A stretch of DNA of 64,000 nucleotides from NCBI RefSeq assembly GCF_016862915.1, contig NZ_BONW01000008.1:186001-250000 (forward strand), in the 5' to 3' direction. Positions 18,395 to 63,664 of this stretch are shown here, piece by piece. Source of the stretch: Plantactinospora endophytica (lineage in GTDB: Bacteria > Actinomycetota > Actinomycetes > Mycobacteriales > Micromonosporaceae). The notes below the pieces were generated by a model. It was not told where the DNA came from and made no database searches. It saw only the letters and a list, made by a program, of their open reading frames with translations. Made by a program: the position numbers and the translations under genes. Each line of letters starts with the position of its first letter. The first letter of the stretch is position 1.

Positions 18395-18499
18395 ATGCCA
18401 CGGATGGTCGACCGTCCGCGCGCCCCAGCCGCACCGGGTCCGTACGGATCCAGTCCTCCACCAAGCCGCCCGACCGGCCGGCAGACTGATGGGACAGGT

Positions 18500-33895: not shown

Positions 33896-33896
<1 letters not shown>
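33801..33896. repeat. 16-bp tandem repeat, four perfect and two degenerate copies
   Basis: Units CGTGCCGACGACCCGG start at 33801, 33817, 33833 and 33849, followed by two diverged copies at 33865 and 33881. The array fills the gap between the convergent GH65-like and FecE-type genes and reaches the stop codon of the latter. A 16-bp period without spacers rules out CRISPR. Confidence 0.92.
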
Positions 33897-34777
<881 letters not shown>

Positions 34778-34778
34778 C

Positions 34779-35846
34779 TCAACCTCCAGAACCGGCACGG
34801 TTGGCTCGGACGAGTAGCCAGAGCAGGAACGCGGCGCCGAGCGCCCCGGTGACCACACCCACCGGGAGGTCGACGTCCGGGATGAGCCAGCGGGCCACCA
34901 GGTCGCTGGCCGAGACCATCAGCGCCCCGGTCAGCGCGGACGCCAGCATCGGCGGCGCGGAGAGCCCGACCAGCCGCTGGGCGACCTGCGGTGCCGCCAG
35001 GGCCACGAACAGCACCGGGCCGGTGGCGGCGGTGGCGAACGCGACAAGTGCCACACCGACCACCACCAGGCAGAGCCGGGCCAGTTGCACCGGAGTACCG
35101 AGCCCACGGGCCACCTCGTCGCCGAGGTGCAGGGTACGGGTCCAGCGCCCGAGCAGCATCCCGGCGGGCAGCAGCACCAGTACGGCGGCGGAGAGCGGTC
35201 CGACCGTCTCCCAGCCGCGCCCGTTGAGGTTGCCGACCAACCAGCCGAGCGCCGCCTGTGCCTCGGTCAACTGGGCCCGGGTCAGCAGGTAGTCGGTGGC
35301 GCTGGCGCACATCCAGGAGACCGCGATGCCGACCAGCACGATCCGGTACCCGGTGGCACCGCCCCGCCAGGCCAGCAGGTAGATCAGTGCGGCGGTGGCC
35401 AACCCGCCGGCCAGGCCCAGCGCCGGCAGGCTCAGTCCGGCGCCGCTGGCGAGCACGATGCCGGCGACCACGGCGGTGGTGGCCCCGGCGTTGATGCCGA
35501 TCATGTCGGGACTGGCCAGCGGGTTGCGGGTGACGGTCTGGAAGATCGCCCCGGAGACCGCGAACGCGGCACCGGCGAGTACGGCGGTCAGCGCCCGGGG
35601 CAGTCGCAGTTCCCGGACGATGAAGACCTGGCCCGGGTCGCCGGAACCCCAGAGCGCGGGCACCACCCGCAGTGGACTGACCGGGTAGTCGCCGGTCGCG
35701 ATTCCGACGCAGAAGACCACGAAGGTCAGCGCGGCGAGCCCGAGACAGCAGAGCAGCACCCGGCCGCGAAGTACGCCGGAGACCGGCGGCCGGCCGAGCC
35801 GGAACGCGGTACGTCCGCCGGAGCGGCGCAGTTCGAGCAGGGTCAC
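34779..35846 (-). CDS. FecCD-family ferric-siderophore permease (second subunit)
   Basis: A 355-aa integral membrane protein, about ten helices. FecCD landmarks: RELRLPRALTAVLAGAAFAVSGAIFQ, NPLASPDMIGINAGA near 140-155, RTLHLGDEVARGLGTPV near 245-260, and APQVAQRLVG, where the family has VPH. It follows the other permease by 5 bp. The pair forms the channel of a type II (BtuCD-like) importer for the hydroxamate siderophore. The GTG start at 35846 is accepted since no nearer alternative fits. Confidence 0.92.
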   Translation of the reverse strand: MTLLELRRSGGRTAFRLGRPPVSGVLRGRVLLCCLGLAALTFVVFCVGIATGDYPVSPLRVVPALWGSGDPGQVFIVRELRLPRALTAVLAGAAFAVSGAIFQTVTRNPLASPDMIGINAGATTAVVAGIVLASGAGLSLPALGLAGGLATAALIYLLAWRGGATGYRIVLVGIAVSWMCASATDYLLTRAQLTEAQAALGWLVGNLNGRGWETVGPLSAAVLVLLPAGMLLGRWTRTLHLGDEVARGLGTPVQLARLCLVVVGVALVAFATAATGPVLFVALAAPQVAQRLVGLSAPPMLASALTGALMVSASDLVARWLIPDVDLPVGVVTGALGAAFLLWLLVRANRAGSGG

Positions 35847-35851
35847 CGGGC

Positions 35852-36922
35852 TCAGAGCTCCGCGAGCCGGCGGCGCCGGACCAGCATGATGAAGAACGGA
35901 CCGCCGATGAACGCGGCGATGATGCCGACGCCGACCTCGCTCGGCCGGGCGACGACCCGACCGACGATGTCGGCCAGTAGCAGCAGGCTCGGCGCGAGCA
36001 CCATGGTGAACGGCAGCAGCCAGCGGTGGTTGGGGCCGGTGATCAGCCGGGCCAGGTGCGGCACCACCAGGCCGACGAAGACGACCGGGCCGGCCACCGC
36101 GACCGCCGACCCGGCGAGCAGCGTCACCGCCAGGGTGCCCTGGAGGCGTACCAGTCCGACCCGGCGGCCCAGCGCGGTCGCCACGTCGTCGCCGAGGGCG
36201 AGACTGTTCAGCGCCGGTGCGGCGGCCAGCGCCAGTACGGTGCCGACGGCCAGGAACGGCAGAAGTTGGCCGATGGTGCCGAAGTCCGGGCCGGACAGCG
36301 AACCGGCCGCCCAGAACCGGTAGCGGTTCAACGCGTCCGGGTCGCGCAGCACGATGGCGCTGGTCAGCGAGTTGAGCAGGAAGGTGATCGCCACTCCGGC
36401 CAGCGCCACCTTGACCGGGGTGGAGCCGCCCCGGCCGAGCCCGCCGAGCAGGTAGACGACGACGCTGGCGAGCAGCGCGCCGACGAAGGCGAACCAGATG
36501 TAGCCGTAGAGGGTGGCGATGCCGAACCAGGCGATCGCGACGACGATGCCGAGTGCGGCACCGGCGCTCACCCCGAGCAGCCCCGGGTCGGCGAGCGGGT
36601 TGCGGGTCAGCCCCTGCATCAGGGCGCCGGAGAGTCCGAGCGCGATGCCGACCAGCAGGCCGAGCACGGTACGCGGCAGGCGTACGCCCCAGACGATGGC
36701 TTCGACCTGCGGGTCGGCGGCCCGGGCTGCGGCCCGGTCCAGCAGGGTCTGCACCACCTGGTCGAGCGGGATCTGCCGGCTGCCCACCGCGACGGAGAGC
36801 AGGGACAGGACGATCAGGACGGTCGTGGCGACCAGGAAGAGCCCGACCGGACGGGTGGGTCGGTGGCCCGTCGCCCGGGTTGGCCCGGTCGGGCTCACCG
36901 GTGCTGCCTGGTCTGTTGTCAC
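35852..36922 (-). CDS. FecCD-family ferric-siderophore permease (first subunit)
   Basis: A 356-aa membrane protein, about ten helices after a Pro/Thr-rich N-terminus of about 27 residues. FecCD landmarks: WGVRLPRTVLGLLVGIALGLSGALMQGLTRNPLADPGLLGVSAGA and LGDDVATALGRRVG, then VGLVVPHLARLITG (the VPH block). It is the first gene of the uptake operon. The start GTG 36922 follows GAGGAGCGC. The iron box 68 bp upstream implies repression by an IdeR/DmdR1-type regulator. Confidence 0.92.
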   Translation of the reverse strand: MTTDQAAPVSPTGPTRATGHRPTRPVGLFLVATTVLIVLSLLSVAVGSRQIPLDQVVQTLLDRAAARAADPQVEAIVWGVRLPRTVLGLLVGIALGLSGALMQGLTRNPLADPGLLGVSAGAALGIVVAIAWFGIATLYGYIWFAFVGALLASVVVYLLGGLGRGGSTPVKVALAGVAITFLLNSLTSAIVLRDPDALNRYRFWAAGSLSGPDFGTIGQLLPFLAVGTVLALAAAPALNSLALGDDVATALGRRVGLVRLQGTLAVTLLAGSAVAVAGPVVFVGLVVPHLARLITGPNHRWLLPFTMVLAPSLLLLADIVGRVVARPSEVGVGIIAAFIGGPFFIMLVRRRRLAEL

Positions 36923-37056: not shown

Positions 37057-37075
37057 TTAGGTAAGGATTACCTTA
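37057..37075. promoter_or_regulatory. Iron box upstream of siderophore-binding lipoprotein and NRPS
   Basis: TTAGGTAAGGATTACCTTA matches 15 of 19 bases of the recalled IdeR/DmdR1 consensus. It lies 170 bp before the lipoprotein start on the + strand and probably controls the lipoprotein-NRPS-MbtH transcript. Confidence 0.82.
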
Positions 37076-37244: not shown

Positions 37245-38270
37245 ATGTCCACGACACCTGCCCGCCCGATCCGCGCCGGGCGACTCGCCCGACTCACGGC
37301 GGCCCTCGCCGTCCTCGCCCTCGGCCTCGCCGGCTGCGGTGGCGGCGACGACGGCGCCGACCCGGCACCGTCCGCGAGCAGCGGCGGCAGCTTTCCGGTG
37401 ACGGTCGAGCACAAGTACGGCAGCACCGAGATCACCAAGGCGCCGACCCGGGTCGTCACGCTCGGCCTCAGCGACCAGGACCCGGTGCTCGCCCTCGGTG
37501 TCGTACCGGTCGGCGCGATCGACTGGTTCCTGGAGCGGCCGTACGGCAAGTGGCCGTGGGCGCAGCCGCTGTGGGGCAGCACCCCGCCGGAGATCGTCGG
37601 TGAGCGGGACGACTACAACCTCGAAAAGATCGCCGCACTGCGTCCGGATCTGATCATCGGGCTCTACTCCGGGATGACGCAGGAGCAGTACCAGAAGCTC
37701 TCCCAGCTCGCCCCGACCGTCGCCCAGCCGAAGGGCTACGCCGACTACGCCGCACCCTGGCAGGAGATGACCCGATCGGCCGGCCGCGCGCTGGGCAAGC
37801 CGGAGCAGGCCGACAAGCTGATCGCCGACGTCGACGCCCGGTTCGCCAAGGCCCGGCAGGAACACCCCGGCTTCGCCGGCAGGACCGTCGCGGTCGTCGA
37901 CCCGTACGAGGCCGGCAAGTACGCGGTCTTCGCGCCGAGCGACCCGAAGGTGGTCTTCATGACCCAGCTCGGCTTCACGGTGCCGCAGACCATCGTGCAG
38001 GCGGCCGGCAAGGAGTACGCCGCCGAGATCGGCTCCGAGCGGCTCGACCTGGTCGACGTCGACAAGCTGCTCTTCCTCACCTCCGACGCCAGCGCCGAGC
38101 CCCGGGTGAAGGCGGACAAGGTCTACGCCACCCTCGAGGTGGCCAAGCAGAACCGGGCGGTCTTCCTGCCGTACGAGAACCCGCCGCTGGGCGGTGCGCT
38201 CTCGTTCAGCACCGTGCTGAGCGTCCCGTACGCGCTGGACCAGATCCTGCCGCTGCTCGGCGACGGCTGA
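37245..38270 (+). CDS. Iron-siderophore-binding lipoprotein (FecB/CchF type)
   Basis: A 341-aa substrate-binding protein that captures the ferric siderophore at the outer face of the membrane. Lipobox LAGC with Cys31 after a hydrophobic signal. The two lobes have the class III binding-protein marks: [21 protein letters not shown] near 65-85 and the helix backbone between lobes. [15 protein letters not shown] is the typical lobe-1 end. It is divergent from the permease operon and 70 bp upstream of the NRPS, so uptake and synthesis are co-regulated. The start ATG 37245 follows GAAGAGGAG. Confidence 0.92.
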
Positions 38271-38340: not shown

Positions 38341-41300
38341 GTGCCCACAAGTGACCTGAACCGTGCCGGCCACGGGCCGACCACGGACCGGCACCGGATC
38401 CTCGTCGAGTGGAACGAAACGGTCCGTCCCGCACCCCCGGCGACCTGGCCGGACCTCTTCGCGGCGCAGGTCCGCCGTGCGCCGGGGGCGGTGGCGGTGG
38501 TCTGCGAGGACGTCGAGCTGACGTACGCGCAACTCGACGCCCGGGCGAACCGGCTGGCTCACGCGCTGCTGGCCCGGGGAGTCGGGCCGGAGCGGGTGGT
38601 GGCGCTCTGCCTGCCCCGCTCGGTGGACATGATCGTGGCCGAGGTGGCGGTGCTCAAGGCCGGCGGCGCCTACCTGCCGGTGGACCAGGACTACCCGGCC
38701 GAGCGGACCGGCTTCATGCTGGCCGACGCCCGGCCGGTCTGCCTGGTCAGCACGACCGCGCTGGCCAGCGAACTGCCGGCGACCCCGGGCCTGCCCCGGC
38801 TGCTCCTCGACGAGCTGCTAGCCGACGAGCCGCTTGCCGACGCGCAGCCTCCGACCGACGACCGGGCCGGGACGCGCCAGGCCGGAACCGATCAGGCCGA
38901 AATCGATCGGCCGGGTGGACGGCTGCCCGACACCGATCCGACCGACGACGACCGGGGTGCGCCGCTGACCCCGGACAGTGCCGCGTACGTCATCTACACC
39001 TCCGGCTCGACCGGCCGGCCCAAGGGCGTCGTCGTGTCGCACGCCGGGGTGGCCAAGCTGGTCGCCACCCAGCGGGCCCGGCTCGGCGTCGGGCCGCAGA
39101 GCCGGGTACTCCAGTTCGCCTCGCCCAGCTTCGACGTGGCGTTCTGGGACCTCTGCCTCGGGCTGCTCTCCGGCGGCCGGCTGGTGGTGGTACCGGCCGA
39201 GCGCCGGGTGCCCGGCCCCGCGCTGACCGAGTACGCCCACCGGCACGGCGTGACCTTCATGATCCTGCCGCCGGCCCTGCTCGCCGCGATGCCCCGGGAA
39301 CTCACCCTGCCGGCCGGGGCGACCCTGCTGGCCGGTACCGAACGGGTCTCCCCGGAACTGGTCGCCCGGTGGGCCCGGGACCGGCCGATGTTCAACGCGT
39401 ACGGGCCGACCGAGGCGACCGTCAACTCGACGCTGGGGGAGTGCGACCCGCAGACCCCGCCCGGTGGCGTGGTGCCGATCGGCCGCCCCGACCCGGGCAC
39501 CCGGTGCTACGTGCTGGACGACGCCCTCCAGCCGGTACCGGTCGGCGCCACCGGTGAGCTGTACCTCGGCGGCACCGGGCTGGCCCGGGGCTATCTGGGA
39601 CAACCGGGGCTGACCGCGCAGCGGTTCGTCGCCGACCCGTATGGGCCGGCCGGTGGGCGGCTCTACCGCACCGGTGACCTGGTGCGCTGGCTGCCGGACG
39701 GGCGGCTGGAGTTCCTCGGCCGCGCCGACGACCAGGTGAAGATCCGTGGCTACCGGATCGAGCCGGGCGAGATCGAGTCGGTACTGGCCCAGCATCCGGC
39801 GGTCGGCCAGGTCGCCGTACTGGCCCGGCCGGGGCGGGACGGTCAACAGCGACTCGCCGCGTACGTCGTACCGGCGCTGGACCGGCCGGCGGACCGGGAT
39901 GCCGGAGTGGAGTCGGCCCGGGTGGACGACTGGCAGCGGCTGCACGAACTGCTCTACACCGCCGGGCGTACCGAGCGGTTCGGGGAGAACTTCACCGGCT
40001 GGAACAGCAGCTACGACGGGCTGCCGATCCCGCTGGCCGAGATGCGCGAGTGGCGGGACCGGACGGTCGAACGGATCCTCGCACTGCGCCCGCGCCGGGT
40101 GCTGGAACTCGGGGTCGGCAGCGGCCTGCTGCTGGCGAAGGTGGCGCCGGAGGTGGAGTCGTACTGGGGTACCGACCTCTCCCCGGCCGCGATCGAGGCG
40201 CTGCGCGACGAGGTGGCGGCGGTGCCGGCGCTGGCCGGCCGGGTCGAGCTGCGCGCCCAGCCGGCCGACGTGACCGACGGACTGCCGACCGGCTTCTTCG
40301 ACACCATCGTGCTGAACTCGGTACTCCAGTACTTCCCGAGCGTCGACTACCTGGCCGACGTGCTGCGCCGGGCGGTCGCGCTGCTGGCGCCGGGCGGCAG
40401 CGTCTTCGTCGGCGACGTGCGCAACCTGCGGCTGCACCGCACGCTGCGCGGGGCGATCGAGGCCGGCCGCCGCCGGCCGGACGCCGACGGCCGGCCGGCC
40501 GCGCTGGCCGCCGTCGAGCAGGCGCTGAGCTGGGAGGGCGAGCTGCTGCTCGACCCCGAGTTCTTCCCGGCGCTGGCCCGGGAGGTGCCGGCGATCGCCC
40601 GGGTCGACGTCGAGGTGAAGCGCGGCCGGGCACACAACGAACTCACCCGCTACCGGTACGACGTCGTGCTGCGCACCGCCGCCACCGATCCGTCCACCGT
40701 GGACGAAGCGGTCGAGCGGCCCTGGCACGACGAGCCGGCCGGGCTCACCGGACTGGCCGACCGGCTCGACTCGGCGCGGCCGGCCGTGCTGCGGGTCACC
40801 GGAGTACCGAACGCCCGGCTGGACGCCGACCTCACCGCCTACCGCAACCTCTCCGGCGCCCCCGCGCCCACCGCCGAGAACGGAGCTGCCGGGGCGCCGG
40901 GTGTCGACCCGGAAGCCGTCTACGAACTGGCCGGACGGCACGGCTACCGGGTCGCCGTCACCTGGTCCGGTACCGCTGACGACGGCCGTCTCGACCTGCT
41001 CTTCTCCCACCCGGACGCGGCACCGGCCACACCCGCGTACCGGCCGGAGCCGGTGTCCGGGTCGCTCGACCGGTACGCCAACCGTCCGGCCCCGTTCCGG
41101 GACGTCACCGCACTGCTGGCCGAGCTGCGTACGCACGCAAGGAGCTGGCTGCCCGACCACATGGTGCCGGCCGCCTTCGTGCCGCTGCACGAGCTGCCGG
41201 TGCTGCCCAGCGGAAAGCTGGACCGCTCCGCGCTGCCGGCACCGGACTTCGCGGCGCTGACCACCGGGGCCCGGCCCCGGGACGCCCGCGAGGAGGTGCT

Positions 41301-44300
41301 CTGCGCCCTCTACGCCGAGGTCCTCGGGCTGCCCGAGGTCGGCGTGGAGGACGACTTCTTCGCCCTGGGCGGGGACAGCATCGTCTCGATCCAGCTCGTG
41401 ATCCGGGCCCGGCAGGCCGGACTGGTGATCACCCCGCGCCAGGTCTTCCAGCGCCGTACCGTCGCCGAGCTGGCGCCGGTGGCCGAGTCGCTGTCCCGGG
41501 CCGTCGAGGACGACCCGCAGGCCGGGGTCGGCGAGTTCCCGCTCACCCCGATCATGCGCTGGCTGGACGGATGCGGTGGCCGGCTCGACGCGTTCGCGCA
41601 GTGGCTGGCGGTCCGGGTACCCGCCGAGGCGACCGCCGAGCGGCTGGCCGGCGTGCTCCAGGCGGCGGTGGACCGGCACGACGTACTCCGGTCCCGGCTG
41701 GTCCGAGCCACCCCGGGACAGCCGGGCCGGCTGGTGGTGCCGGCGCCCGGCACCGTGCCGGCAGCCGACCTGCTGCACCGGGTCGACGTCGCCGGGCTGA
41801 CCGACGAGGCGCTGCGGGACCGCATCACCGCTGCCGCCGACGAGGCGGGCGCCCGGCTGGCCCCGGAGGCCGGCGCCATGCTCCAGGCGGTCTGGCTCGA
41901 CGCCGGCCGGGACCGGACCGGCCGGCTGGTCGTGGTGGTGCACCACGTGGTGGTCGACGGCGTCTCCTGGCGGATCCTGCTGCCCGACCTGGCGGCGGCC
42001 TGGCCGGACGTGGCCGCCGGCCGGACGCCCCGGCTGGAACCGGTCGGCACCCCGCTGCGCCGCTGGGCCGAACTGGCGATCGCCGACGCCGATTCGGCGG
42101 ACCGGACCGCCGAGCTACCACTGTGGACGGAGCTGCTGCGCGGCGACGACCCACCGCTGGCCGACCGCCCGCTCGACCCGGTCGGCGACCTCGACTCCGT
42201 CCACCGGCTCACCCTGCGGCTGCCCGCCGACCGGACCGCGCCGCTGCTCACCAGCATTCCGGCGGCGTTCTCCGCCGGGGTCAACGACGTGCTGCTCACC
42301 GCGTTCGCGCTGGCGCTGGCCGACTGGCGCCGACGCCGGGGGACCAGTGTGCCCGGCCCCGCGCTGGTCGCGCTGGAGGGGCACGGCCGGGAGGAACAGC
42401 TCGCCGACGGCGTCGACCTGTCCCGCACGCTCGGCTGGTTCACCAGCATCTTCCCGGTACGCCTCGACCCCGGCCCGATCGACCTGGCCGACGCGCTGGC
42501 CGGTGGCGAGGACGCTGGCCGGGCCCTGAAGCGGATCAAGGAAGGGCTGCGCGCCATCCCCGACCACGGACTCGGGTACGGCCTGCTGCGGCACCTCAAC
42601 CCGGAGACCGCCGCCGTACTCGCCGGACTGCCCCAGCCGCAGATCAGCTTCAACTATCTCGGCCGCTTCGGGGTGGAGTCGTCACCGGACGGCTGCTGGA
42701 CGCCGCTGCCCGGACTCGGCCTGCTCGCCGGTGGCTTCGACGCGGCGATGCCGGTGGCGCCCTACACGCTGGAGGTGAACGCCTTCACCGAGGACCGGCC
42801 GGACGGCCCCGGGCTCGGCGTGACCTGGGCCTGGCCGGCGGCGCTGCTCGACGAGGCGGACGTGGCGGAGCTGGCCGACGGCTGGTTCGCCGCACTCGAC
42901 GCACTGGTCCGGCACGCCGCCCGGCCCGGAGCCGGTGGGCCGAGCCCGTCCGACTTCCCGCTGCTGCCGGTGCGCCAGGACGACGTGGACGAGCTGGCCG
43001 CCACCGTACCGGCGGTCGCCGACCTGCTGCCGCTGACCCCGTTGCAGGAGGGGCTCTACTTCCACGCGGTCGCCGCCGGGGCGGACCGGGACCCGTACCG
43101 GGTGCAGCAGGTGATCGAGCTGCGCGGGCCGTTGGACGCCGCCGCGCTGCGCCGGGCCGGCCAGGACGTGCTGGACCGGCACGCCCCGCTGCGGGCCGCC
43201 TTCCCGCAGCTCGCCGACGGGCGGCCGGTGCAGCTCGTCGCGGACCGGATCACGCTGCCGTGGCGCGAGGTCGACCTGACCGGGTACCCCGAACCGGAGC
43301 GGGAGGCCGAGTTCGAGGCGCTGGCCGAGGCGGAACGGAGAGCCCCGTTCGACCTGGCCCGGCCACCGCTGCTGCGCTGCGTACTGGTCCGACGGGACGC
43401 GCAGCGGCACGATCTGCTGCTCACCCACCACCACATCGTCACCGACGGCTGGTCCGCCGGGGTGACCCTGCGGGACCTGCTCGCCCGGTACGCCCCCGGA
43501 GGCGAGCCGGTCCGGCTGCCGGCGGTCACCCCGTACCGGCGGTATCTCGACTGGCTGGCCGGCCGCGACCGGTCGGCGGCCGACGCCGCCTGGCGGACCG
43601 CGCTGTCCGGAGTGGACGGTCCGACCCGGCTCGCCGCCGAGGCCGAGGACGGTTTCGACGGGATGTTCCATGCCGAGCGGACCGTGGTGCCGCTGGCCCC
43701 CGAGGTGGCGGCCGGGCTCGCCGGTCGGGCCAGGGCCGCCGGGCTGACCGTGGGGAGCGTGCTGCACGCCGCCTGGGCGGTGCTGCTGGGCCGCCGCCTC
43801 GGCCGCCGTGACGTCGTCTTCGGCAGTACGGTCTCCGGCCGGCCGGCCGAACTGGACGGCGTCGAGGCGATGGTCGGGCTGTTCATCAACACCCTGCCGG
43901 TCCGGCTGCGCTGGAGCCCGGCCGAGCCGCTGGTCGAGCTGGCCGGCCGGCTCCAGCGGGAACAGGCCGAACTGCTCGACGCCCAGCACCTCGGACTGCC
44001 GGCGATCCAGCGGCTGGCCGGCGTCGGCGAGCTGTTCGACAGCCTCGTGGTGGTGGAGAACTATCCCGTCGACGCTGCGCCCGGCGGCCGGGCCGGCGGC
44101 CTAGAAGTAGCCGGCGTCGAGTTCCGGGAGGCGACCCACTATCCGGTGACCCTGCTGGTGGCGCCGGCCGACGACCTGCTGGAACTCACCATCGAATACG
44201 ACCCGGACCGGGTCGACGCGGCGACGGTACGCCAGCTTCGTACCGGGCTGGCCGAGGTGCTCGGCACGTTCGTCGCCGAGCCGGACCGTCCGGTCGGCCG

Positions 44301-47300
44301 GATCGACCTGCTGCCGGCCGCCGAACGTGGACCGGGACTGGCCCGGCTAACCGGTCCGGTCGGCCCGGTGCCGGCGGAGACCCTGGACGGGCTGGTCGCC
44401 GCGCAGGCGGCGCGGACGCCGGACGCGGTCGCGCTGTTCGACGGGGAGCGGCAGCTCTGCTATTCGGAGCTGGACCGTCGGGCCGGCGCGCTGGCCCGGC
44501 GACTGGCGGCCCGGGGCGTCCGACCCGGCGACGTCGTCGCGGTCGCGGTACCCCGCTCCGCCGAGCTGGTGGTGGCGATGCTCGGCGTCATGAAGACCGG
44601 TGCGGCGTACGTGCCGCTGGACGTTTCGCATCCCCGGGACCGGCTCTCCGGGGTGCTCGCCGACTCCGGCGCCCGAGCCGTCGTCGCCACCGTGGAGGTG
44701 CTGCCCCGGGTGCCCCGACCGGACGGCGTGGCCCACCTGCTGCTCTCCCCGGCGGCGGAGCCGGACGCCGAGTCGGCGACTCTCGCTGTCCCGTCCGGGG
44801 TTGCCGCCGACCCCGACCGGCCCGCGTACCTGATCTACACCTCCGGATCGACCGGCCGCCCCAAGGGAGTGCTGGTCGGCCACCGAGCCGTCGTCAGCCA
44901 GTTGGCCTGGTCACAGCGGCGGTTCGGGATCGGCACCGAGGACCGGATGCTGCAACTCGCCCCGGCCAGTTTCGACACCTCGGTCTGGGAGATCTTCTGG
45001 CCGCTGTCGGCCGGTGCCGCCGTGGTGCTGCCCGGCGAGGACGAGGCCGGCGACCCGGCCCGGCTCGCCGAACTGGTCCGCCGGCACCGGGTCACCGCGG
45101 TGACCTTCGTACCGTCGCTGGTGGAGGCGTTCCTGCTCGCCGACGAGGTGACCGCCGACCCCGGCTGGGCGGCAACCCTGCGCTGGGTCTCCTGCGGCGG
45201 CGAGGCGCTCTCCCCGGACCTGGCCCGACGCTGGTACGCCCGCACCGGCACCGCGCTGGACAACTTCTACGGACCGACCGAGACGGCGGTGCAGGTCACC
45301 TGGTGGGCCAACGACGGCACTGCGGACCGGACCGTGCCGATCGGCCGTCCGGTGGCAAACACCCGGCTGTACGTGCTCGACGACTGCCTCCGGCCGGTGC
45401 CGCCCGGCGTACCCGGCGAGCTGTACGTCGCCGGCACCCAGCTCGGGTACGGCTACCACGCCCGGTTCGGGCTGACCGCCGAGCGCTTCGTCGCCGACCC
45501 GTACGGGCTGGCGGGGGAGCGGATGTACCGCACCGGTGACCTGGTGCGATGGCGTACGGACGGGGTACTCGAATACGTCGGCCGGAGCGACGCCCAGGTC
45601 AAGATCCGGGGGCACCGGATCGACCTGGGCGAGGTCGAGGCTGCACTCCGGAGCGCGCCCGGGGTGGCGCGGGCGGTCGCCGCCGTCCGGGTCGACGGAC
45701 GGGGCCGGAGCCACCTGGTCGGTTACCTGGTGCCGGTCGCCGGTACCCGGCTCGACGTCGAGGCGGTCCGGGCCGCACTCCGGGCCGGGTTGCCCGGGTC
45801 GATGGTGCCGGGCCGGTTCGTGGTGCTCGACGCGCTCCCGCTGACCCCCAGCGGCAAGCTCGACCGGGCCGCCCTGCCGGCGCCTGCCGTCGGCGCGGAG
45901 CCGGCCGCCGCCCCGCCCGCCCCGGGCGCCGGGCCAACCGGTCCGGTCACCCGTTCCGTCGTCGGTCCGGTCGCCGGTTCCGTCGCTGGTTCGGTTGCTG
46001 GTCCGGTCGCCGGTTCCGTTGTTGGTCCGGTCGCCAGTTCGTCCATCGCGGACGGTGTGGAGCCGGCCGGCGGGGGCGGTGCGGCCGAACGGCTGCTCCG
46101 GGAGATCTTCGCCGAGGTGCTCGGCCTGCCCGGGGCCGGTGCCGACGAGGACTTCTTCGCCCTCGGCGGCGACAGCATCCTCTCCATCGCGGTGTCCAGC
46201 CGGGCCCGCCGGCACGGACTGGCGCTCGCCCCGCGCGACGTCTTCCGGCACCGGACCCCACGGGCACTGGCCGAGGCCGCCGGTGGCGACGCGGCGCTCT
46301 CCCCGGCCAGCGCTCCGACGGCCAGCGCGCACGCCCCGACGGCCACCGCCGCACTGACGGCGGGCTCCGCGCCAACCAGTGCCCGGAGCCTGGTCGGCTC
46401 CCCGGCCAGCCCGGTGGTGGCGTCGCCGTCGCCGTCGCCGTCGGAGACGGACCCGGACGAGCTGGGCGACGTGCCGCTGCTGCCGACGGTGCACTGGCTG
46501 CGGGACACCGGACTGCCGATCGACCGGTTCACCCTGAGCACGCTGCTGGTCGTACCGGCGGAGCTGGACCTCGGGTCGCTGACGGCCGTACTCCAGGCGG
46601 TGCTGGACCGGCACGCCGGCCTGCGGCTCCGGCTGCGGCGGATCGCCTCGGTGCTCTGGACGCTCGACGCGGCTCCGGCCGGTGCCGTACCCGCCATCGA
46701 CCTGGTACGCCGCGTCGACGTGACCGGGCTGGACGACACCGGCCTGCGTACCGTGCTGGCCGTCGAGGCGGCCGCCGCGACCGACCGGCTGGCCCCGGAC
46801 GAGGGGACCATGCTCCAGGCGGTCTGGTTCGACTCCGGCGACCGACCCGGTCGGCTGCTGCTCGCCGCCCACCACCTGGTGGTCGACGGCGTGTCCTGGC
46901 GGATCCTGCTGGAGGACCTGGCCGCCGCCTGGGCCTCGGTACGGGCCGGAGAGCCGATCCTGCTCGCCCCGGTCGGCACCTCGCTGCGCCGGTACGCGCG
47001 GGTGCTTGGCGAGCATGCGCACCGCCCCGAGCGGCTGGCCGAACTCCCGCACTGGGCGGAGACCCTCGCCCCGGGAGCGGAGCTGCTGCCGGCGCTGGGC
47101 AGGCCACCGGCCGGGCCCGCCCGCCAGTACGTCGTACGCCTCGAACCGGCGCAGACGCTGCCGCTGCTCACCGCCGTACCGGCAGCGGTCGGTGGCGAGG
47201 TCACCGGAGTGCTGCTCGCGGCGCTCCGGCTCGCGGTCAGCCGGTGGCAGGACCGGCACGGCCGGAACGCCGCTGCCGACCTGCTCGTCGACCTCGAACG

Positions 47301-50300
47301 GCACGGTCGGGAGGAACTCGAACCCGGCCTCGACCTGTCCCGTACGGTCGGCTGGTTCACCAGCGTCCAGCCGGTACGCCTACCCGCCGGCACCGACCCG
47401 GCCGACGTGCTGCGTACGGTCGGCGAGCGGATCCGGGCCGTACCAGACGGCGGCCTCGGCCACGGGCTGCTCCGGTACCTGAACGCCCAGGCGGCACCGA
47501 TCCTGGCCGGGCTCTCCTCGGCCCAGGTGCTGTTCCACTACTACGGCAGGTTCCCCGGCGGCACCGGAGAGAGCTGGACCCCCGCCGCCGAGTCCGACGC
47601 CGTCACGGCCGTCAACGCCGGGCTCGGCCTGTCCCACCTGCTCCAGATCGACGCGGTCGCCACCGAGACCTCGGCCGGGCCGGTGCTGACCGCGACCTGG
47701 ACCTGGCCGGACGGCACGCTCGACGAGCCGGACGTAACCGAGCTGGCCGCCGAGTGGCTCGACGCACTCCGCACACTCGCCGCCGCCGTCACCGCCGAGC
47801 CGGTGACCGACGCTGCCGTCGATGCCGGCCGGGACGGTGGGACCGTTCGGCACGCGCCCAGGATCGCGGCCGGGATGTCGCTGAGCCGGGACGAGATCGA
47901 CCGGATCGAGCGGACCAGCCCGCTGCCGGTGGCGGAGATCTGGCCGCTCTCCCCGTTGCAGGAGGGCCTGTACTTCCACGCCAGCTACGACACCTCGGCG
48001 CTGGACGTCTACACCGCACAGGACGCCTTCGACCTCGGGTACCGGCTGGACCTGGACCGGCTGCGCCGGGCCGGGGCCGCACTACTGGCCCGCAACCCCG
48101 GCATGCGGGCCGGGTTCACCAGCGTCGGGCTGTCCCAGCCGGTGCAGTTCGTCGGGGTGGCCCCCGAACTGCCGGTGACCGAGGTGGACCTGACCGACCT
48201 CGACCCGGAGTCTCAGCAGGTCAGGGTGGCCGAGTTGATGGCCGAGGACCGGGCGACCCGGTTCGACCTGACCCGACCGCCGCTGTGCCGACTGCTGCTG
48301 CTCCGGCTCGGGGACGACCGGGACCGGCTGGTGGTCAGCCACCACCTGGTGCTCTGGGACGGCTGGTCCGAGGAACTCTTCGTCGAGCAGCTCTTCACGC
48401 TCTACGAGCGCGACGGTGACGACCGGGACCTGCCGCCCGCCGGGTCGTACCGCGACCATCTCGAATGGTTGGCCGGGCAGGACACCGAACAGGCCGGTCG
48501 GGCCTGGCGGGACGCCCTCGCCGGGCTCGCCGAGCCGACCCTGGTCGCCCCGGAGGCGACCCTGGCCCCGGTCGTCCCGCACCGGGTCCGGACCGAACTT
48601 CCGACGGTACTCGGTGACCGGCTGCGCGACCTGGCCCGACGGCAGAGGCTGACCCTGAACACCGTGCTCACCGCCGCCTGGGGACTCGTCCTCGGTGGAC
48701 ACCTCGGCCGGACCGATGTGGTCTTCGGGATGACCGTCGCCGGTCGGCACGGCGACATCCCGCACGTCGAGAACATCATCGGACTGTTCCTGAACACCGT
48801 TCCGGTACGCGTCGACGCCGCGCCCGCCGAACCGGTGCTCGGCCTGCTCCGCCGGCTACGCGACCGGCGGATCGACCTGATGCCGCACGACCACCTCGGG
48901 CTCGGCGCGGTACAGCGGGCCACCGGGCACGCCCGGCTCTTCGACACGCTCTACGTGTTGCAGAACTTCGTCGACGAGGGGGAGTCGGCCCGGCTCCGGG
49001 ACCAGCACGGGATCGCCGCCGTCGACGGGGTGGACGCCACCCACTATCCGCTGACCCTGGTGGTCACCCCGGCCGAGCGGATCCGGGTGGCCCTGGACCA
49101 CCGGCCGGACGTCGTACCCGGGGCGGTGGCCCGGAGCCTGCTCGACCGGTTCGTCGCACTGCTGTCCCGGCTGGTCGCCGAGCCGGAGATCGCGGTCGGC
49201 CGGCTCGACCTGCTGACCGGGGCGGAACGGGCCGAACTCGGGGTGGAGTGGAGCGCCACCCGACACCCGGTCGGCACCGAGTCCGTCGCGGACCTGCTGG
49301 CCGAGCAGGCCGCCCGGACCCCGGACGAGGTGGCGTTGGTGTTCGCCGGCCGGACCCTGACGTACGCCGAGTTCGACGCCCGGATCAACCGGCTGGCCCG
49401 GCTACTGGTCGACCGGGGCGCCGGCCCGGAGCGGGTGGTCGCACTGGCGCTGCCCCGCTCGATCGAGATGGTGGTCGCGCTCTTCGCGGTGCTGCGCACC
49501 GGTGCCGCGTACCTGCCGTTGGAGCTGGACCATCCCGCCGAGCGGCTGGCCTTCGTACTCGCCGACACCGCGCCGATGTGCCTGCTGACGGTGGCGGCGG
49601 TGCGGGGCGGGTTGCCGGAGACCGACACGCCGACCGTGCTGCTCGACGATCAGTTGGTCGCCGCCGAGCTGGCCGGACTGTCGGGCGGGGCGCTTCCCGA
49701 CGCCGAGTTGCCGGCCGGGTTCGCCCGGACCGATCCGCACCGGTTGGAGTACCCGGCGTACCTGATCTACACCTCCGGCTCCACCGGGCGGCCGAAGGGC
49801 GTGGTGACGCCGTACCGGGGGTTGACGAACATGCAGCTCAACCACCGGGAGGCGATCTTCGACCCGACGGTGGCGGCGGCCGGCGGGCGGCGGCTGCGGA
49901 TCGCGCACACCGTCTCGTTCGCCTTCGACATGTCCTGGGAGGAGCTGCTCTGGCTGGTCGAGGGGCACGAGGTGCACGTCTGCGACGAGGAACTGCGCCG
50001 GGACGCGCAGGCACTCGTCGCCTACTGTGACCGGCACCGGATCGACGTCGTCAACGTCACCCCGAGCTACGCCCACCACCTGATCGAGGAGGGCCTGCTC
50101 GACCAGGACGAGGCTGCCGGGGAGAGCGGCGGGCGGCACCGGCCGGTGCTGGTGCTGCTCGGCGGCGAGGCGGTCTCCGAGGCGGTCTGGAGCCGGTTGC
50201 GGGACACCGAGGGTACGGCCGGCTACAACCTGTACGGGCCGACCGAGTACACCATCAACACCCTTGGCGGTGGCACGCTGGACAGCGACACCCCGACCGT

Positions 50301-53300
50301 CGGGCGGGCGATCTGGAACACCCGCGCGTACGTGCTCGACGCCCACCTCCGGCTCGCCCCGCCCGGCGCCCCCGGCGAGTTGTACATCGGCGGCATCGGC
50401 CTGGCTCGCGGCTACCACCGACGGCTCGGGCTGACGGCGGAGCGGTTCGTCGCCGACCCGTACGGTGCGCCGGGGGAGCGGATGTACCGCACCGGTGACC
50501 TGGTCCGGCGCCGCCCGGACGGGAACCTGGACTTCCTCGGGCGCACCGACGACCAGGTGAAGATCCGGGGCTACCGGATCGAGTTGGGCGAGGTGGAGGC
50601 GGCACTCGCCGAACACCCGCTGGTGGCGCACGCCGCCGTGGTCGTGGACTCCTCGACCGATCCCGGGGTACGCCGGCTGGCCGGCTACGTCGTACGCGGT
50701 ACACAGTGGACGGAGCCGGACGACGACGTGCTCACGGCGATCCGGGCCGACCTGAAGCGGCGGCTGCCGGACTACATGGTGCCGGCCGCGCTGGTACCGC
50801 TGGACCGGCTGCCGCTGACCGTGAACGGCAAGCTCGACGTGGCGGCACTGCCGGCCCCGACGGTACGGACCGGCGCGGCCTCCCGCCCGCCGGCCTCGAC
50901 CGCCGAGAAGACGCTCTGCACCCTCTTCGCCGAGCTGCTCGGCGTGCCGGAGATCGGCGTCGAGGACAACTTCTTCGATCTCGGCGGCCACTCCCTGCTG
51001 GCGATCCGGCTGGTCAGCCGGGCCCGGGTGGCGCTCGGCGCCGAGTTGTCGATCCGGGACCTGTTCGAGGCGCCGACCGTCGCCGAGCTGGCCGCCCGGA
51101 TCGGCGGTGCGGACCAGGACGGTACGGCCGGTGACGGCGGCGGCCGGATCGCGCTGGTCCGGGCCGAGCGCCCCGCCGAACTGCCGCTCTCCTCCGCCCA
51201 GCAACGGCTCTGGATGATCCAGCAGCTCGCTCCGGAGTCGGCGGCGTACAACTTCCCGATCGCGGTACGACTGCGCGGTGCGCTGGACGTCGCCGCACTG
51301 ACCAGCGCGCTGGCCGACCTGACCGGCCGGCACGAGACGCTGCGGACGCTGATCGGCGAGCGGGACGGGCGGCCGTACCAGCGGGTGCTGGCGGTGGCCG
51401 ACGCCCGACCGGTACTGGGGACCGTCGTCGCCGCGCCGGCCGAGGTGGCCGGGATCGTCCGGGAGGCGGTCGACCGCCCGTTCGACCTGACCACCGAACC
51501 ACCGCTACGAGCCACCCTCGTCGCTGTCGACGGGGCACCAGGTGCGGTCGAGGAGCACGTCCTGGTGCTGGTACTGCACCACATCGCCACCGACGAATGG
51601 TCGGACCGGCCGTTCCTGCGCGACCTCGGCGCGGCGTACGCGGCCCGGCGGGCGGGACGGGCGCCGGACTGGACACCCCTGCCGGTGCAGTACGCCGACT
51701 ACACCCTCTGGCAGCGCCGACTGCTCGGCGAGCCGACGGATCCGGGCAGCCTCGCCGCCCGGCAACTCGACTACTGGCGGCAGGCGCTCGACGGCGTACC
51801 CGAGGAACTGGTGCTGCCCACCGACCGGCCCCGCTCGGGGCGACCGGACCCGGCCGGGGCGGAACTGACCGTCGAGTTGCCGGCCGAGGTCGGCGCCGGG
51901 CTGCGCCGGCTCGCCCGGGAGACCGGGACCAGTCTCTTCATGGTGGCCCACGCGCTGGTCGCGGCGCTGCTGCACCGGCTCGGTGCCGGTACCGACATCC
52001 CGCTCGGCGCACCGATCGCCGGGCGGGGCGACGCGGCCCTCGACGACCTGGTCGGATTCTTCGTCAACACCCTGGTACTCCGGACGGACCTGCGGGGCGA
52101 TCCGGACTTCACCGAGCTGCTGGCCCGGGTCCGGCGGACCGACCTGGCCGCCTTCTCCGCCCAGGAGGTGCCGTTCGAGGCGGTGGTCGAGGCGGTCAAC
52201 CCGGCCCGCTCGGTCTCCCGCAACCCGTTGTTCCAGGTGATGGTGGTGCACCGCAACCGGACCGCCGAGTGGAGCGGACTCGCCGGGCTCACCGTCACCG
52301 ACGAGCCGGTCGAGACGCCGGCCGCGAAGTTCGACCTGGTCTTCGACTTCGCCGAGGCGCCCGAGCCCGCCCTGCCCGCCGAGACTGCCCAGCCCGCCCT
52401 GCCCGCTCAGCCCGCCGAGGCTGCTCAGCTCGCCCAGGCCCGCGAGACAGTTCAGCCCGCCGAGACCGGGGAAACCGGCGAGACCGGCGAAGGGTCCGAC
52501 GGCGGCGGCGGGGGCGGCGGCGACGCGTTGAGCTGTCTGCTGAAGTACCGGACCGACCTGTTCGACCGGGAGACGGTCGCGCTGCTCGGCGAGCGACTGC
52601 TCCGGCTGGCCCGGGCGGTCGTCGCCGACCCCGGGCTGCCGCTGAGCCGGGTCGACGTCTTCGTCGGCGACGAGCGGGACCGGGTACTACGCGAGTTCAA
52701 CGCCACCGGACGCCAGGTGCCGGAGGAGACCCTGCCGGCGCTGTTCGCCCGGCGCGTGGCGGAGACCCCGGAGGCGGTCGCGGTGGTCGACCGGCAACGG
52801 ACCCTGTCGTACGCCCAGTTGGACGACGAGGCGGCTCGGATGGCGCGACTGCTCGCCGGTCACGGTGTCGGCCCGGAGACGGTGGTCGGGGTGGCGGTGC
52901 CGCGCTCGGCGGAGACCGTCGCCGTGGTGCTCGGGGCGCTGCGGCTCGGTGCCGCGTTCCTGCCGCTCGACTTCGGCCACCCGGCCGACCGGCTGGCCTT
53001 CATGGTCGACGACTCCGGCGCCCGCATCGTGGTGACGACCCCGGAGGCGGCCGGGCGGCTGCCCGAGCTGCCCGGCGTGTCCCGGCTGCTGGTCGAGCCG
53101 GTGCGGGCGGAACCCGTACCGGCGGAGGTTGATCCCGGCCCGGTGGCGCCGGCCGGGCTGGACCACGCGGCGTACGTCATCTACACCTCGGGCAGCACCG
53201 GACGGCCCAAGGGGGTCGTGGTGTCGCACGAGGGGATCGCCAGCCTGGTCGCGACCGCCGTCGACCGGATGGGGGTGGACAGCACCTCCCGGGTACTCCA

Positions 53301-56040
53301 GTTCGCCTCCACCGGCTTCGACGTCTTCGTCTTCGAGCTGGCCATGGCACTGTGTGCCGGTGGCCGGCTGGTGGTGGCCCCGGACGAGGCCCGCGCTCCC
53401 GGCCGGCCCCTGGTGGACCTGCTGGAGCGGGAACGGGTCAGCCACGCGATCCTGCCGCCGTCGCTGGTGTCGGCGCTGCCGCCGGACTGTCAACTGCCGG
53501 CCGGGCTGGTCGTACTGGTCGGCACCGAGACGGTGCCACCGGACCTGATCGGGCGGTGGGCACAGCGGCTGCGGCTCTTCGCCGCGTACGGGCTGACCGA
53601 GGCGACGGTGAACTCGACGCTCTGGCGGGCCGAACCCGACTGGTCCGGTCCGGTGCCGATCGGACTGCCCGACCCGAACACCCGGGCGTACGTGCTGGAC
53701 GAGCGGCTCCGCCCCGTGCCACCAGGAGTGGTCGGCGAGCTGTACGTCGGGGGGCGCGGGCTGGCCCGTGGCTACCTGGGCCGCCCCGGGCTGACGGCGG
53801 AGCGCTTCGTCGCCGACCCGTACGCGCCGGCCGGGGCGAGGATGTACCGCACCGGTGACCGGGCCAGGTGGCGGGCCGACGGCATCCTGGACTTCCTCGG
53901 CCGGGTCGACGACCAGGTGAAGATCCGGGGCTTCCGGATCGAGCTGGGCGAGGTCGAAGCGGTGCTGGCCCGCCACCCGGCCGTACGCCAGGCGGCGGTG
54001 GTGGTGCACCGCAACGCCGACCTGACCCGACTCGCCGGGTACGTCGTACCGGCCGACGGCCCGGTCGACCCCGCCGAGGTACGCGCACACGCGGCGGAGC
54101 TGCTGCCCGACTACATGGTGCCGGCCGCCGTGCTGGTGCTGGCCGGGCCGTTGCCGCTGACCGCCAACGGCAAGCTGGACCGGCGTGCCCTGCCGGCGCC
54201 GGACTGGGCGGCGCTGACCGGCGACGAGGCACCGGTGACTCCGGCACAGCGCACCCTCGCCGGTCTCGTCGCCGAGGTGCTCCGGCTGCCGACGGTGGGT
54301 ATCTCGGACGACTTCTTCGCCCTCGGTGGACACTCGATGGCGGCGATGCGGCTGCTCGGCCGGATCCGGGCGGCGCTCGGCGTCGACCTCGCGGTCCGGG
54401 ACATCTTCGAGGCGCCGACGGTTGCCGGACTGGCGGACCGGCTCGCCGGGGCGGTGGCGGACCGTCCGGCACTGCTCCGGACGGACGAGGCGACCAACCC
54501 GATCGCGGCTCCGGCGCAACAGATCTGGTGGCACCTGCACGGTGGCGCGGTCGAGCGGAGTGCGGCCGGTCGGACCGGTTGGGACCTGGCCCTGGCAGTC
54601 CGCGCGGCCACCGGATCAGGCAACACCGCAGGCGCCGTACCAGGCAACACTGCGGCCACCGGATCGGGTAACACCGCGGGCGCCGGACCAGGTAACACCG
54701 CGGACAGCGGATCGGGCAACGCCGCGGACGCCGGACCGGGCAACATTGCGGACAGCGGATGGGGCGGGGTGCGGACGCTGGACGTACCGGCGCTGACGGC
54801 GGCGCTGGACGACCTGGTGGACCGGCACGAGCCGCTGCGTACCGCACTGGCGGTCGGCGGTGCCGGCGAGCCGGTACCGGTAACGGTCCGGCCCACGCTG
54901 GAGGTGCTGCCGGAGGACGGCCGGCCCGTCGACGAGCGGATCGCCGAGCTGGTCGGCGGGGGTGTCGACCCGACCCGGGAACCGCCGCTGCGGGCCAGGC
55001 TGCTGACCGGACCGGACGGCGATCGGGTACTGCTGCTGACCGTGCACTATCTCGGCGTGGACGAGTGGTCGGTGGTGCCACTGGCTCGGGACCTCGACGT
55101 CGCCTACGCGGCCCGGCTGGCCGGCCGGGCACCGGACTGGTCGCCGCTGCCGGTCGGCTATCCGGACTACGCCCGCTGGGCGGTTACCCTGCTCGGCGAT
55201 CCGGCCGATCCCGACAGCCGGTACGCGCGACAGCTCGACTGGTGGCGGGGAGCGCTGTCCGGCGTACCGGATCGGCTGGCGCTGCCGACCGACCGGGCGC
55301 GACCGGCGGGGCTGACCGGCCGCGGTGGCCGGGTCGAGTTCGTCCTGGATCCGGACTCGCATCGGGCCGTCGACGAGCTGGCCCGGCAGACCGGGACCAG
55401 CATGTTCATGGTCTTCCAGGCGGCCCTCGCGGTGCTGCTGCACCGGGTCGGCGCCGGTCCGGACGTGCCGATCGGCACCCTGGTGGCCGGGCGGACCGAG
55501 GCGGCCCTGGCCGACCTGGTCGGCTGCTTCGTCAACCCGCTGGTACTGCGCACCGACACCGGCGGCGATCCGACCTTCACCGAGTTGCTCGGCCGGATCC
55601 GGGAGGCGGACCTGAGCGCCTTCGACCGCCAGGACGTCCCCTTCGACACGGTACGCCGAGTGCTGCCGGGCGACCGTGCGCTGCCGCAGGTGATGCTGGT
55701 GCACCACGAGGAGGCCCGGCTGGCCGGCCCGGACGGGTCGGCGGCGCTCCGGGTCGAGCCGGTGCCGACCGGTACGACCCGGGCGGAGCTGACGGTCAGC
55801 TTCTACGAGCCGCTCGGCGACGGCCCGGTGCACGGCGAACTGGAGTACGCGGTCGAACTCTTCGAGCCGGCCACCGCGCGCCGGCTCACCGACGACCTGC
55901 TCGGACTGCTCGCCTCGGCGGTCGCCCACCCGGGTCTGCGACTCTCGGCACTCGGCCCCGACCGCGCCGATCCCGCGCCGTCCCTGCCCACCCAGTCGGA
56001 CGGCACGTCCGCCGACCATCCGGAAAGGACCAGCTCATGA
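38341..56040 (+). CDS. Four-module siderophore nonribosomal peptide synthetase with embedded methyltransferase and terminal C domain
   Basis: A 5,899-aa NRPS with order A-MT-PCP-E / C-A-PCP-E / C-A-PCP / C-A-PCP / C. Carrier serines: 1013 and 2612 (GGDSI), 4218 (GGHSL), 5332 (GGHSM). It has no loading C domain and no thioesterase. The two E domains predict a D-D-L-L tetrapeptide. Together with the iron boxes, monooxygenase, formyltransferase and uptake genes this indicates a hydroxamate siderophore of the erythrochelin/foroxymithine plan, where a terminal C domain is thought to close a diketopiperazine. Linkers carry low-complexity repeats (about 2536-2570, 4675-4730, 5425-5472). The start is GTG 38341, about 8 bases after GAGAGGCGG. 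The stop overlaps the ATG of mbtH. Product identity is inference. Confidence 0.95.
38440..42930 (+). other. NRPS module 1: A interrupted by methyltransferase, PCP, E (starter)
   Basis: A domain from about residue 35, with [11 protein letters not shown] near 219, SFDVAFWD near 263, AYGPTE near 354 and VKIRGYRIE near 467. Between this A8 region and the A10 motif PSGKLDR (about 957) lies an insert of about 260 residues (515-778) with the SAM-binding motif VLELGVGSG (587-595) and LNSVLQYF, i.e. a class I methyltransferase. PCP Ser1013. E domain about 1066-1520 with HHVVVDG (1201-1207) and NYLGRF. Specificity code read by alignment to GrsA: D-V-W-I-L-A-A-V-N-(K), close to module 4. Prediction: formyl-hydroxyornithine, N-methylated, epimerised to D. 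Confidence 0.8.
43000..47850 (+). other. NRPS module 2: C-A-PCP-E, unassigned substrate
   Basis: C domain from [13 protein letters not shown] (about 1565) with intact active site HHIVTDG (1697-1703), of the type that accepts a D-configured donor. A domain about 2016-2510 with SFDTSVWE near 2211 and NFYGPTE near 2308. Code read: D-T-W-T-S-G-F-V-Q-(K), which I do not recognise; it is not the usual Ser (DVWHxSLxDK) or Thr code. A Val/Ala/Gly/Ser repeat linker precedes PCP Ser2612. E domain about 2711-3150 with HHLVVDG (2844-2850). Confidence 0.75.
45961..46035 (+). repeat. In-frame 12-bp-type repeat in NRPS linker
   Basis: The A2-PCP2 linker encodes repeating V-x-G-(P/S) tetrapeptides, for example [14 protein letters not shown], from GGTCCGGTCGCC-like units. 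It lengthens the linker without breaking the frame. Confidence 0.75.
47930..51120 (+). other. NRPS module 3: C-A-PCP, predicted L-N5-hydroxyornithine
   Basis: C domain from [14 protein letters not shown] (about 3199). Its active site reads HHLVLWDG (3334-3341), one residue longer between HH and DG than the canonical HHxxxDG. A domain about 3647-4165 with FDMSWEE near 3862 and NLYGPTEYT near 3965. The code D-M-E-N-L-G-L-I-N-(K) is identical to the one I recall for the N5-hydroxyornithine module of coelichelin synthetase. PCP Ser4218. No E domain, so the residue stays L. Confidence 0.82.
51170..54470 (+). other. NRPS module 4: C-A-PCP, predicted L-formyl-hydroxyornithine
   Basis: C domain from [13 protein letters not shown] (about 4280), of the type joining two L residues, active site HHIATDE (4413-4419) with Glu in place of the final Gly. 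A low-complexity Pro/Ala/Gln/Glu and Gly stretch (about 4675-4730) sits near its end. A domain about 4797-5285 with GFDVFVFE near 4992 and AYGLTE, a variant of the usual YGPTE. Code read: D-V-F-I-V-V-A-V-N-(K), similar to module 1, and flanking sequences ([17 protein letters not shown]) agree too. PCP Ser5332. Confidence 0.78.
54480..55960 (+). other. NRPS terminal condensation-like domain with degenerate active site
   Basis: After PCP4 a C-type fold begins with [12 protein letters not shown] (about 5385) and runs to about 5870 without an A domain or thioesterase. The active-site motif reads H-Y-L-G-V-D-E (5569-5575): the second, catalytic His is Tyr and the final Gly is Glu. Later motifs are recognisable ([20 protein letters not shown]). 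A 48-residue repeat insertion sits at about 5425-5472. By analogy with erythrochelin synthetase it may release the chain as a diketopiperazine. Confidence 0.75.
54613..54756 (+). repeat. 24-bp in-frame tandem repeat, six copies, inside terminal C domain
   Basis: Six 24-bp units encode G-(S/P)-G-N-x-A-x-x octapeptides (first unit GSGNTAGA, last GPGNIADS), with S and P alternating between units. The array ends at 54756, just before GWGG. It lies near the start of the terminal condensation-like domain and keeps the frame. Confidence 0.93.
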
Positions 56041-56279
56041 CCACCAATCCGTTCGAGGACCCGGACGGGCGCTACCTGGTACTCGTCAACGACGAGGGGC
56101 AGCACTCGCTCTGGCCCTCCTTCGTCGAGGTACCGGCCGGCTGGGCGGTGGCGTTCGGCGCGGACGGCCCGCAGTCCCGGGCGGACTGCCTCGCCTACGT
56201 GGAGACGAACTGGACCGACCTGCGCCCGCGCAGCCTGCGGGAGCGGATGGCCGGCACGACCGACCACCCCGAGAACTGA
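56037..56279 (+). CDS. mbtH: MbtH-like protein
   Basis: An 80-aa MbtH-family protein, the small partner that binds and activates NRPS adenylation domains. The family signature is complete: [15 protein letters not shown], then [15 protein letters not shown], a Cys-Leu-x-Tyr-x-Glu-x-x-Trp-Thr-Asp block and RPRSLRERM. Its ATG overlaps the NRPS stop (ATGA), so the two are made in step. It is probably required by some or all of the four A domains. Confidence 0.95.
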
Positions 56280-63573: not shown

Positions 63574-63664
63574 CGGAGAACTCCTCCCGTCACCCGCTTG
63601 CGTGTCGCGGACCGCCACCCGACGGGGTGTCGTCGTCTCCGGGCCGTCCGCCCGGCGAGCACGC

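Follow-up and report, generated by a model that had tools for sequence, protein, structure and literature searches.

Several described hydroxamate siderophores bear on the locus considered here, which comes from a soil actinomycete. Foroxymithine is a formylated tris-hydroxamate tetrapeptide with a diketopiperazine, an alpha-N-acetyl group and serine at position 2; erythrochelin is acetylated. Domains that methylate backbone nitrogens are inserted between motifs A8 and A9 of adenylation (A) domains. Phytohabitans, from which a related synthetase has been described, belongs to the Micromonosporaceae. According to the part of the report available to us, albisporachelin from Amycolatopsis albispora has an N-terminal N-methylated N5-formyl-N5-hydroxyornithine (fhOrn) together with fhOrn and N5-hydroxyornithine (hOrn) residues; it is all-L, contains serine, a second N-methyl group and a terminal cyclic N-methyl-hOrn, and has the formula C22H39O10N7, and no cluster had been identified for it at publication (PMC6024995). 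The Phytohabitans synthetase nrps-3 is predicted, in the available portion of that paper, to take a methylated acyl-hydroxyornithine as its first residue (PMC7692728). In the excerpt available of a 2018 study, two Plantactinospora strains have clusters that antiSMASH 3.0 labelled 'erythrochelin' (PMC5968735).

The window, by which we mean the whole 64,000-nucleotide stretch of Plantactinospora endophytica DNA analysed, encodes a tetramodular nonribosomal peptide synthetase (NRPS) that, in our best reading, would follow the foroxymithine/erythrochelin plan with an N-methyl replacing the N-acyl group. The gene is an uninterrupted open reading frame (38341..56040, +) of 5,899 amino acids with zero internal stops. 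By Pfam it contains AMP-binding, Condensation, PP-binding and methyltransferase (MT) domains, and a local domain parse gives the order A-MT-PCP-E / C-A-PCP-E / C-A-PCP / C-A-PCP / C, exactly as the preliminary description had it. To judge from the parse, a multi-domain match this long is not chance. GKLD occurs in all four A domains, GGDS or GGHS in all four PCPs, HHxxxDG in both epimerisation (E) domains, and the SAM motif VLELGVGSG in the MT. The E domains stand in module 1 (41524..42975, +; HHVVVDG, EGHGR, NYLGR) and module 2 (46459..47850, +; HHLVVDG), with none in modules 3 and 4, which bears out the D-D-L-L pattern proposed earlier. An MbtH-like protein (56037..56279, +; PF03621, Pfam E 1.5e-26) follows; the interval of the preliminary description closed at 56279, the end of this gene.

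A search of 354 genomes of the family with the A1-MT region gave 100 matches at E 1e-30 or better, and 38 synthetase proteins from 35 genomes or contigs were parsed, plus a fragment in G332. The full window order occurs in 14 parsed synthetases (the window's included, so 13 further ones, all in the same family); G019 follows it until its contig ends, and in G332 just the beginning is visible. The predicted siderophore family would be common to Plantactinospora and related genera, and its structure and masses, the latter computed for eight choices of the second residue (X), are testable. The predicted neutral mass is 442.218 plus that of the amino acid X, which gives 517.250 for Gly, 531.265 for Ala, 547.260 for Ser, 561.276 for Thr (the formula of albisporachelin), 574.271 for Asn and 588.287 for Gln. 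Genome G554 serves as reference. It is presumably Saccharopolyspora erythraea NRRL 2338, and its NRPS is presumably the erythrochelin synthetase EtcD. That synthetase reads starter C-A[DVWALGAVNK]-PCP-E / C-A[DVWHFSLVDK]-PCP-E / C-A[DMENLGLINK]-PCP / C-A[DVFALGAVNK]-PCP / C with the terminal motif HYLGIDE, a module plan that we take to be that of erythrochelin.

Specificity codes were read against GrsA (chain 1AMU), the final K of each string being assumed. The codes of module 1 (DVWILGAVNK; 38443..39963, +) and module 4 (DVFILGAVNK; 52729..54216, +) are near-identical, and codes and tree together predict fhOrn in both. Module 3 (49282..50874, +) has the hOrn code DMENLGLINK, whose beginning reads DMWN or DMEN depending on the aligner's gap placement. 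An hOrn code in module 3 and related codes in modules 1 and 4 had both been put forward before, and both stand. Module 2 (44380..45900, +) reads DTWTSGFVQK for its substrate X. Across the window-type synthetases modules 3 and 4 show one code each; module 1 reads DVWILGAVNK in five Plantactinospora and DVFILGAVNK in the remaining ten of 15. Six code strings had zero occurrences in the literature text searched. In the wider set of 31 synthetases the module 2 A domains carry eight codes, five of them ending VQK or IQK; module 4 shows three codes in 27 synthetases, and module 3 is fixed by how the set of 31 was chosen. Variation at the non-chelating position 2, set against these two modules, would fit diversified uptake specificity.

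The MT of module 1 (39913..40740, +; Methyltransf_12) lies between A8 and A9, the arrangement of an N-methylating interrupted A domain. Query residues 1-497 are colinear with 5WMM (E 3.3e-98), which we take to be such a domain. A tree of 59 A domains, drawn with its root at the midpoint, places the window A1 in a 25-row A-MT clade (100/100) that also holds Streptomyces, Amycolatopsis and stand-alone A-MT-PCP-E proteins. EtcD-type A1 domains group with A4 domains on the opposite side of the tree. Among the E domains, the window E1 clusters with those of the stand-alone A-MT-PCP-E proteins (100/100). The window E2 is placed, though weakly (93/62 and 95/62), beside its module 2 counterparts in G554 and G480 but apart from those in G660 and G572. 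The window A4 lies within the A4 clade (100/99), and the 22 terminal C domains, those of the window and G554 included, form a group apart from three internal C domains (100/100). Module 1 seems to differ in history from the rest of the NRPS, suggestive of a loading-module swap, because A1 and E1 lie outside the clades of the erythrochelin-type loading module, whereas A4 and the terminal C sit in those of that type. It would be a natural example of a loading-module exchange altering a peptide's N-cap. An MT also occurs within A1 domains of the EtcD side, in L044 and G622; therefore either the MT was acquired repeatedly, or there was further exchange that the trees conceal. At two other loci, L152 in G075 and L153 in G030, a stand-alone A-MT-PCP-E protein is encoded next to NRPSs in which DGEDLGLVDK modules recur; these possibly make another N-methyl-fhOrn siderophore.

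Two tailoring genes lie divergently, roughly 18.5-20 kb upstream of the NRPS: a putative hydroxyornithine formyltransferase (FMT; 17315..18274, −; Formyl_trans_N/C) and an L-ornithine N5-monooxygenase (OMO; 18395..19867, +; PF13434, 362.9 bits), the only one of the genome's five matches to cover the whole ornithine/lysine N-monooxygenase model. Their distance and the unrelated genes between count against our preferred explanation. Next to the NRPS are a ferric-siderophore ABC importer ATPase (33896..34858, −; ABC_tran; the top-scoring NCBIfam models, iron-enterobactin/FecE, stay under their cut-offs), two FecCD permeases (34779..35846 and 35852..36922, both −; PF01032, 272 and 317 bits) and a siderophore substrate-binding protein (SBP; 37245..38270, +; PF01497). 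A probable siderophore exporter of two ABC halves (61504..63618 and, from its start to the window's end, 63668..64000, both −; ABC_membrane, ABC_tran) lies on the other side, the first half being kept near the NRPS in relatives; the second gene (L236) runs past the window to about 65.4 kb, or window-equivalent 63668-65428 read stop to stop. Sugar-utilisation genes separate FMT/OMO from the importer and MbtH from the exporter. Sugar-uptake and arabinofuranosidase genes, LacI and TetR regulators, a GT87 gene and an Mrr-like endonuclease occupy 19962-33800 and 56386-61183. This intervening set varies in Plantactinospora, with no sugar permease match in G337 and G332 and none for arabinofuranosidase in G334; stretches examined from other genera gave no match to LacI, sugar permeases, GT87, Mrr or arabinofuranosidase.

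The preliminary description had relied on a formyltransferase. It does travel with the synthetase in relatives, but it lies outside the interval first described. In 16/16 window-type genomes (two NRPSs being cut by contig ends) FMT and NRPS are no more than about 24 kb apart, and the same holds for OMO in 15 of the 16, the exception being G051, where OMO is not adjacent. Among 24 genomes searched, OMO was found at E 1e-60 in 23 and a close FMT (72-100% identical) in 23. G336, the only one among the six other Plantactinospora to lack the A1-MT region, has a best FMT match only 31% identical, and OMO was not found in it at E 1e-60. Outside Plantactinospora, G013 has a compact order of FMT, OMO, ATPase, two FecCD genes, SBP, NRPS, MbtH and ABC exporter. 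That the FMT is unrelated, being about 20 kb off, was considered and rejected given the linkage in relatives and an iron box at its promoter.

Iron boxes were scored with a 19-bp IdeR/DmdR-like consensus. The FMT/OMO divergent gap holds a box at 18376..18394 with one mismatch to this consensus (0.00 expected in shuffles), a weaker one is at 37057..37075 in the FecCD/SBP divergent gap (five matches at two sites, 0.07 expected), and a third, with two mismatches, lies just outside the window at the far end of the second exporter gene (window-equivalent 65424). The FMT/OMO box is kept in the three Plantactinospora relatives for which a scan covered this gap (G335, G333, G337); the same gap in other relatives has only weak matches with 4-5 mismatches. 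The FecCD/SBP box (<=4 mismatches) is present in 4/4 Plantactinospora and 5/5 other window-type relatives scanned. In G554 no iron box was found at OMO, SBP or NRPS, which counts against the preferred explanation; its single box, with three mismatches, is about 4 kb beyond MbtH. Relatives and iron boxes together tie the FMT/OMO pair, the importer and the ABC exporter pair to the NRPS, so that the predicted cluster is one that extends from 17.3 to about 65 kb and would be iron-repressed.

Two C domains depart from HHxxxDG. That of module 3 (47932..49245, +) reads H-L-xxx-DG, with the second His replaced, and is predicted from motif and survey to acylate the delta-N-OH of hOrn. Among C domains feeding a chain-extending hydroxyornithine module (DMENLGLINK), the second His is missing in 54/54 distinct sequences; C domains of modules with the cyclic-hOrn code keep it in 22/22. 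These counts are of distinct sequences, with L042 and G333, the same genome, counted once; 24 of 30 loci had a readable C-A pair, three of those lacking a readable code. The motif may instead stand in a shifted register, HHxxxxDG. Against this, the best PDB sequence alignment of the domain is ungapped (a weaker one, to an E domain, has a gap), and an upstream motif lies equally far away, at 25 residues in 23/31 hOrn and 24/81 other C domains (4 and 51 being missed by a crude regular expression, the rest having other spacings). We propose that the second His may be dispensable in a delta-N-acylating C domain because an alpha-effect nucleophile can react without a general base or a His to position it. 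If confirmed, the loss would make the linkage readable from sequence in genome mining, and it would test the weight of the C-domain His in catalysis. The final C domain (54487..55971, +) is present as first described, its motif being HYLGVDE (HYxxxDE) rather than HHxxxDG; motif and tree predict diketopiperazine formation and release. A dead domain was considered here and rejected, as the EtcD-like synthetase has HY too. Somewhat short of an even chance, in our estimate, is a joint reading in which hydroxamate-building C domains form a distinct class without the second His, the residue at that place predicts delta-N versus alpha-N linkage, and the window NRPS is the outcome of a natural exchange in which an N-methylating loading module replaced an N-acylating one, residue 2 being re-specified as well.

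The product is probably a tris-hydroxamate tetrapeptide, N-methyl-D-fhOrn - D-X - cyclo(L-hOrn - L-fhOrn), made by an iron-repressed siderophore cluster. OMO would make N5-hydroxyornithine, part of which the formyltransferase would turn into fhOrn. Module 1 would load fhOrn, its embedded MT methylating the alpha-nitrogen and its E domain inverting the residue, and module 2 would add and then invert X. The C domain of module 3 would acylate L-hOrn with X at its delta-N-hydroxyl nitrogen, giving a hydroxamate and leaving the alpha-amine free. After module 4 has added L-fhOrn, the free alpha-amine of hOrn would attack the fhOrn thioester in the terminal C domain and release a diketopiperazine, hexadentate for Fe(III). 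We infer the substrate identities, the choice of formyl over acetyl, the regiochemistry, iron repression and diketopiperazine release. The preliminary interpretation is supported in the parts that sequence can test, namely architecture, D-D-L-L pattern, the codes of modules 3 and of 1 and 4, a travelling FMT and an MT placed as in 5WMM.

Parts of this prediction could be otherwise. The module 2 A domain resembles serine-type domains overall, its closest A domains outside the window-type group being mostly of that type (best 61% identical); X might be serine or another small residue, with the pocket change due to drift and the product on the foroxymithine plan, N-methyl taking the place of N-acetyl (C21H37N7O10, 547.260). 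We hold this to be unlikely, as the A2 code differs from the serine code DVWHFSLVDK at six of nine positions read, and the pocket is kept in 15/15 window-type synthetases read, with DTWTSGFVQK in 13/15 and DVWTSGFVQK, one position off, in 2/15. Read by its code, X is not serine; naming it from the code was rejected, given serine-type neighbours with a different pocket. The same residues might also be released in another way, as a linear peptide by hydrolysis or with a terminal cyclic hydroxyornithine. A terminal C motif without the second His would suit this, and albisporachelin, of similar composition, ends in a cyclic residue, in the accessible part of its description (PMC6024995). We find it quite unlikely: HYxxxDE also occurs in the EtcD-like synthetase, with Tyr at the second-His place in 12/21 terminal C domains, no TE domain was found in the NRPS by Pfam search, and the module 4 code is fhOrn-type, whose formylated delta-N cannot close a lactam.

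Very unlikely is an N-methyl erythrochelin, that is, the same peptide plan with acetyl hydroxyornithines and an FMT serving another product. It draws on the similar codes of EtcD-like G554, whose product we take to be the acetylated erythrochelin. Against it stand the FMT linked in every window-type cluster and so distant a match in NRPS-less G336, the iron box at the FMT promoter, and position 278 of A1 and A4, which is Ile and not Ala. Clusters with FMT linked have Ile at this position, whereas the two EtcD-like synthetases that lack a linked FMT have Ala. Seven order-mates with Ile-278 in A4 (G480, G660, G562, G572, G645, G563, G622) have FMT within 3 kb; in G554 (Ala-278) the siderophore-type FMT is about 385 kb from the synthetase, and in its congener G940 (Ala-278) FMT was not found at E 1e-80. 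We read Ile-278 as marking the smaller formyl group, from a single contrast in which Ala comes from one genus. G030 and G075 have Ile-278 A domains, yet their FMT is elsewhere in the genome, against a formyl rule. An MT that is inactive or methylates another atom, leaving the amine of residue 1 free, seems most improbable with an intact SAM motif, the A8/A9 position, and an MT in 15/15 window-type synthetases read.

The preliminary description saw no known exact match for the formylated, N-methylated product we prefer. Neither architecture nor product was found described in the open literature searched, a scope outside which the original erythrochelin, foroxymithine and scabichelin papers lie, and the combination of a first residue methylated rather than acetylated with formyl groups was apparently built by the exchange of one module. 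N-terminal N-methyl-fhOrn itself is already known from albisporachelin, as the available part of its report has it (PMC6024995), and 'erythrochelin' clusters had been named in Plantactinospora (available excerpt of PMC5968735). Two other synthetases, in G622 and L201, read A-MT / C-A(Ser) / C-A(hOrn)-MT / C-A(fhOrn) / terminal C with no E domains; their predicted residue set is that of all-L albisporachelin as given in the accessible text (PMC6024995). If this type is the albisporachelin cluster, a diketopiperazine isomer of the same formula is worth considering.

The window NRPS resembles EtcD in its four modules on one protein (the first domain excepted), D-D-L-L pattern, DMENLGLINK third module with matching acyl-hOrn codes in 1 and 4, and terminal C of the same clade with HYLGxDE; OMO, SBP, MbtH and exporter lie near the synthetase in both. 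It differs in having an embedded MT in A1 where EtcD has an N-acylating starter C domain, Ile-278 rather than Ala-278 in A1 and A4, DTWTSGFVQK in place of the serine code in A2, and an FMT in the cluster, which the EtcD locus lacks. With foroxymithine, compared on chemistry and not on sequence, the predicted product shares the formylated tris-hydroxamate tetrapeptide with diketopiperazine; foroxymithine has alpha-N-acetyl and serine at position 2 where N-methyl and X are predicted here. A DMENLGLINK module with an H-L-xxx-DG C domain is found in two synthetases about the size of the coelichelin synthetase CchH, which has three modules. Phytohabitans nrps-3, also from the Micromonosporaceae, and the scabichelin-albachelin type share an A-MT first module with a related A domain (the A-MT clade of the tree). 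As far as the available descriptions go, they have, unlike the window, two MT domains, no E domain in module 1, no terminal C domain and a further module with the cyclic-hOrn code DA[WQ]EGGLVDK, which is absent from the window and present in G031, G313, G338 and L052. Albisporachelin, in the part of its report available, resembles the predicted product in its N-methyl-fhOrn N-terminus and its fhOrn and hOrn residues; it is unlike it in being all-L, with serine, a second N-methyl group and a terminal cyclic N-methyl-hOrn (PMC6024995).
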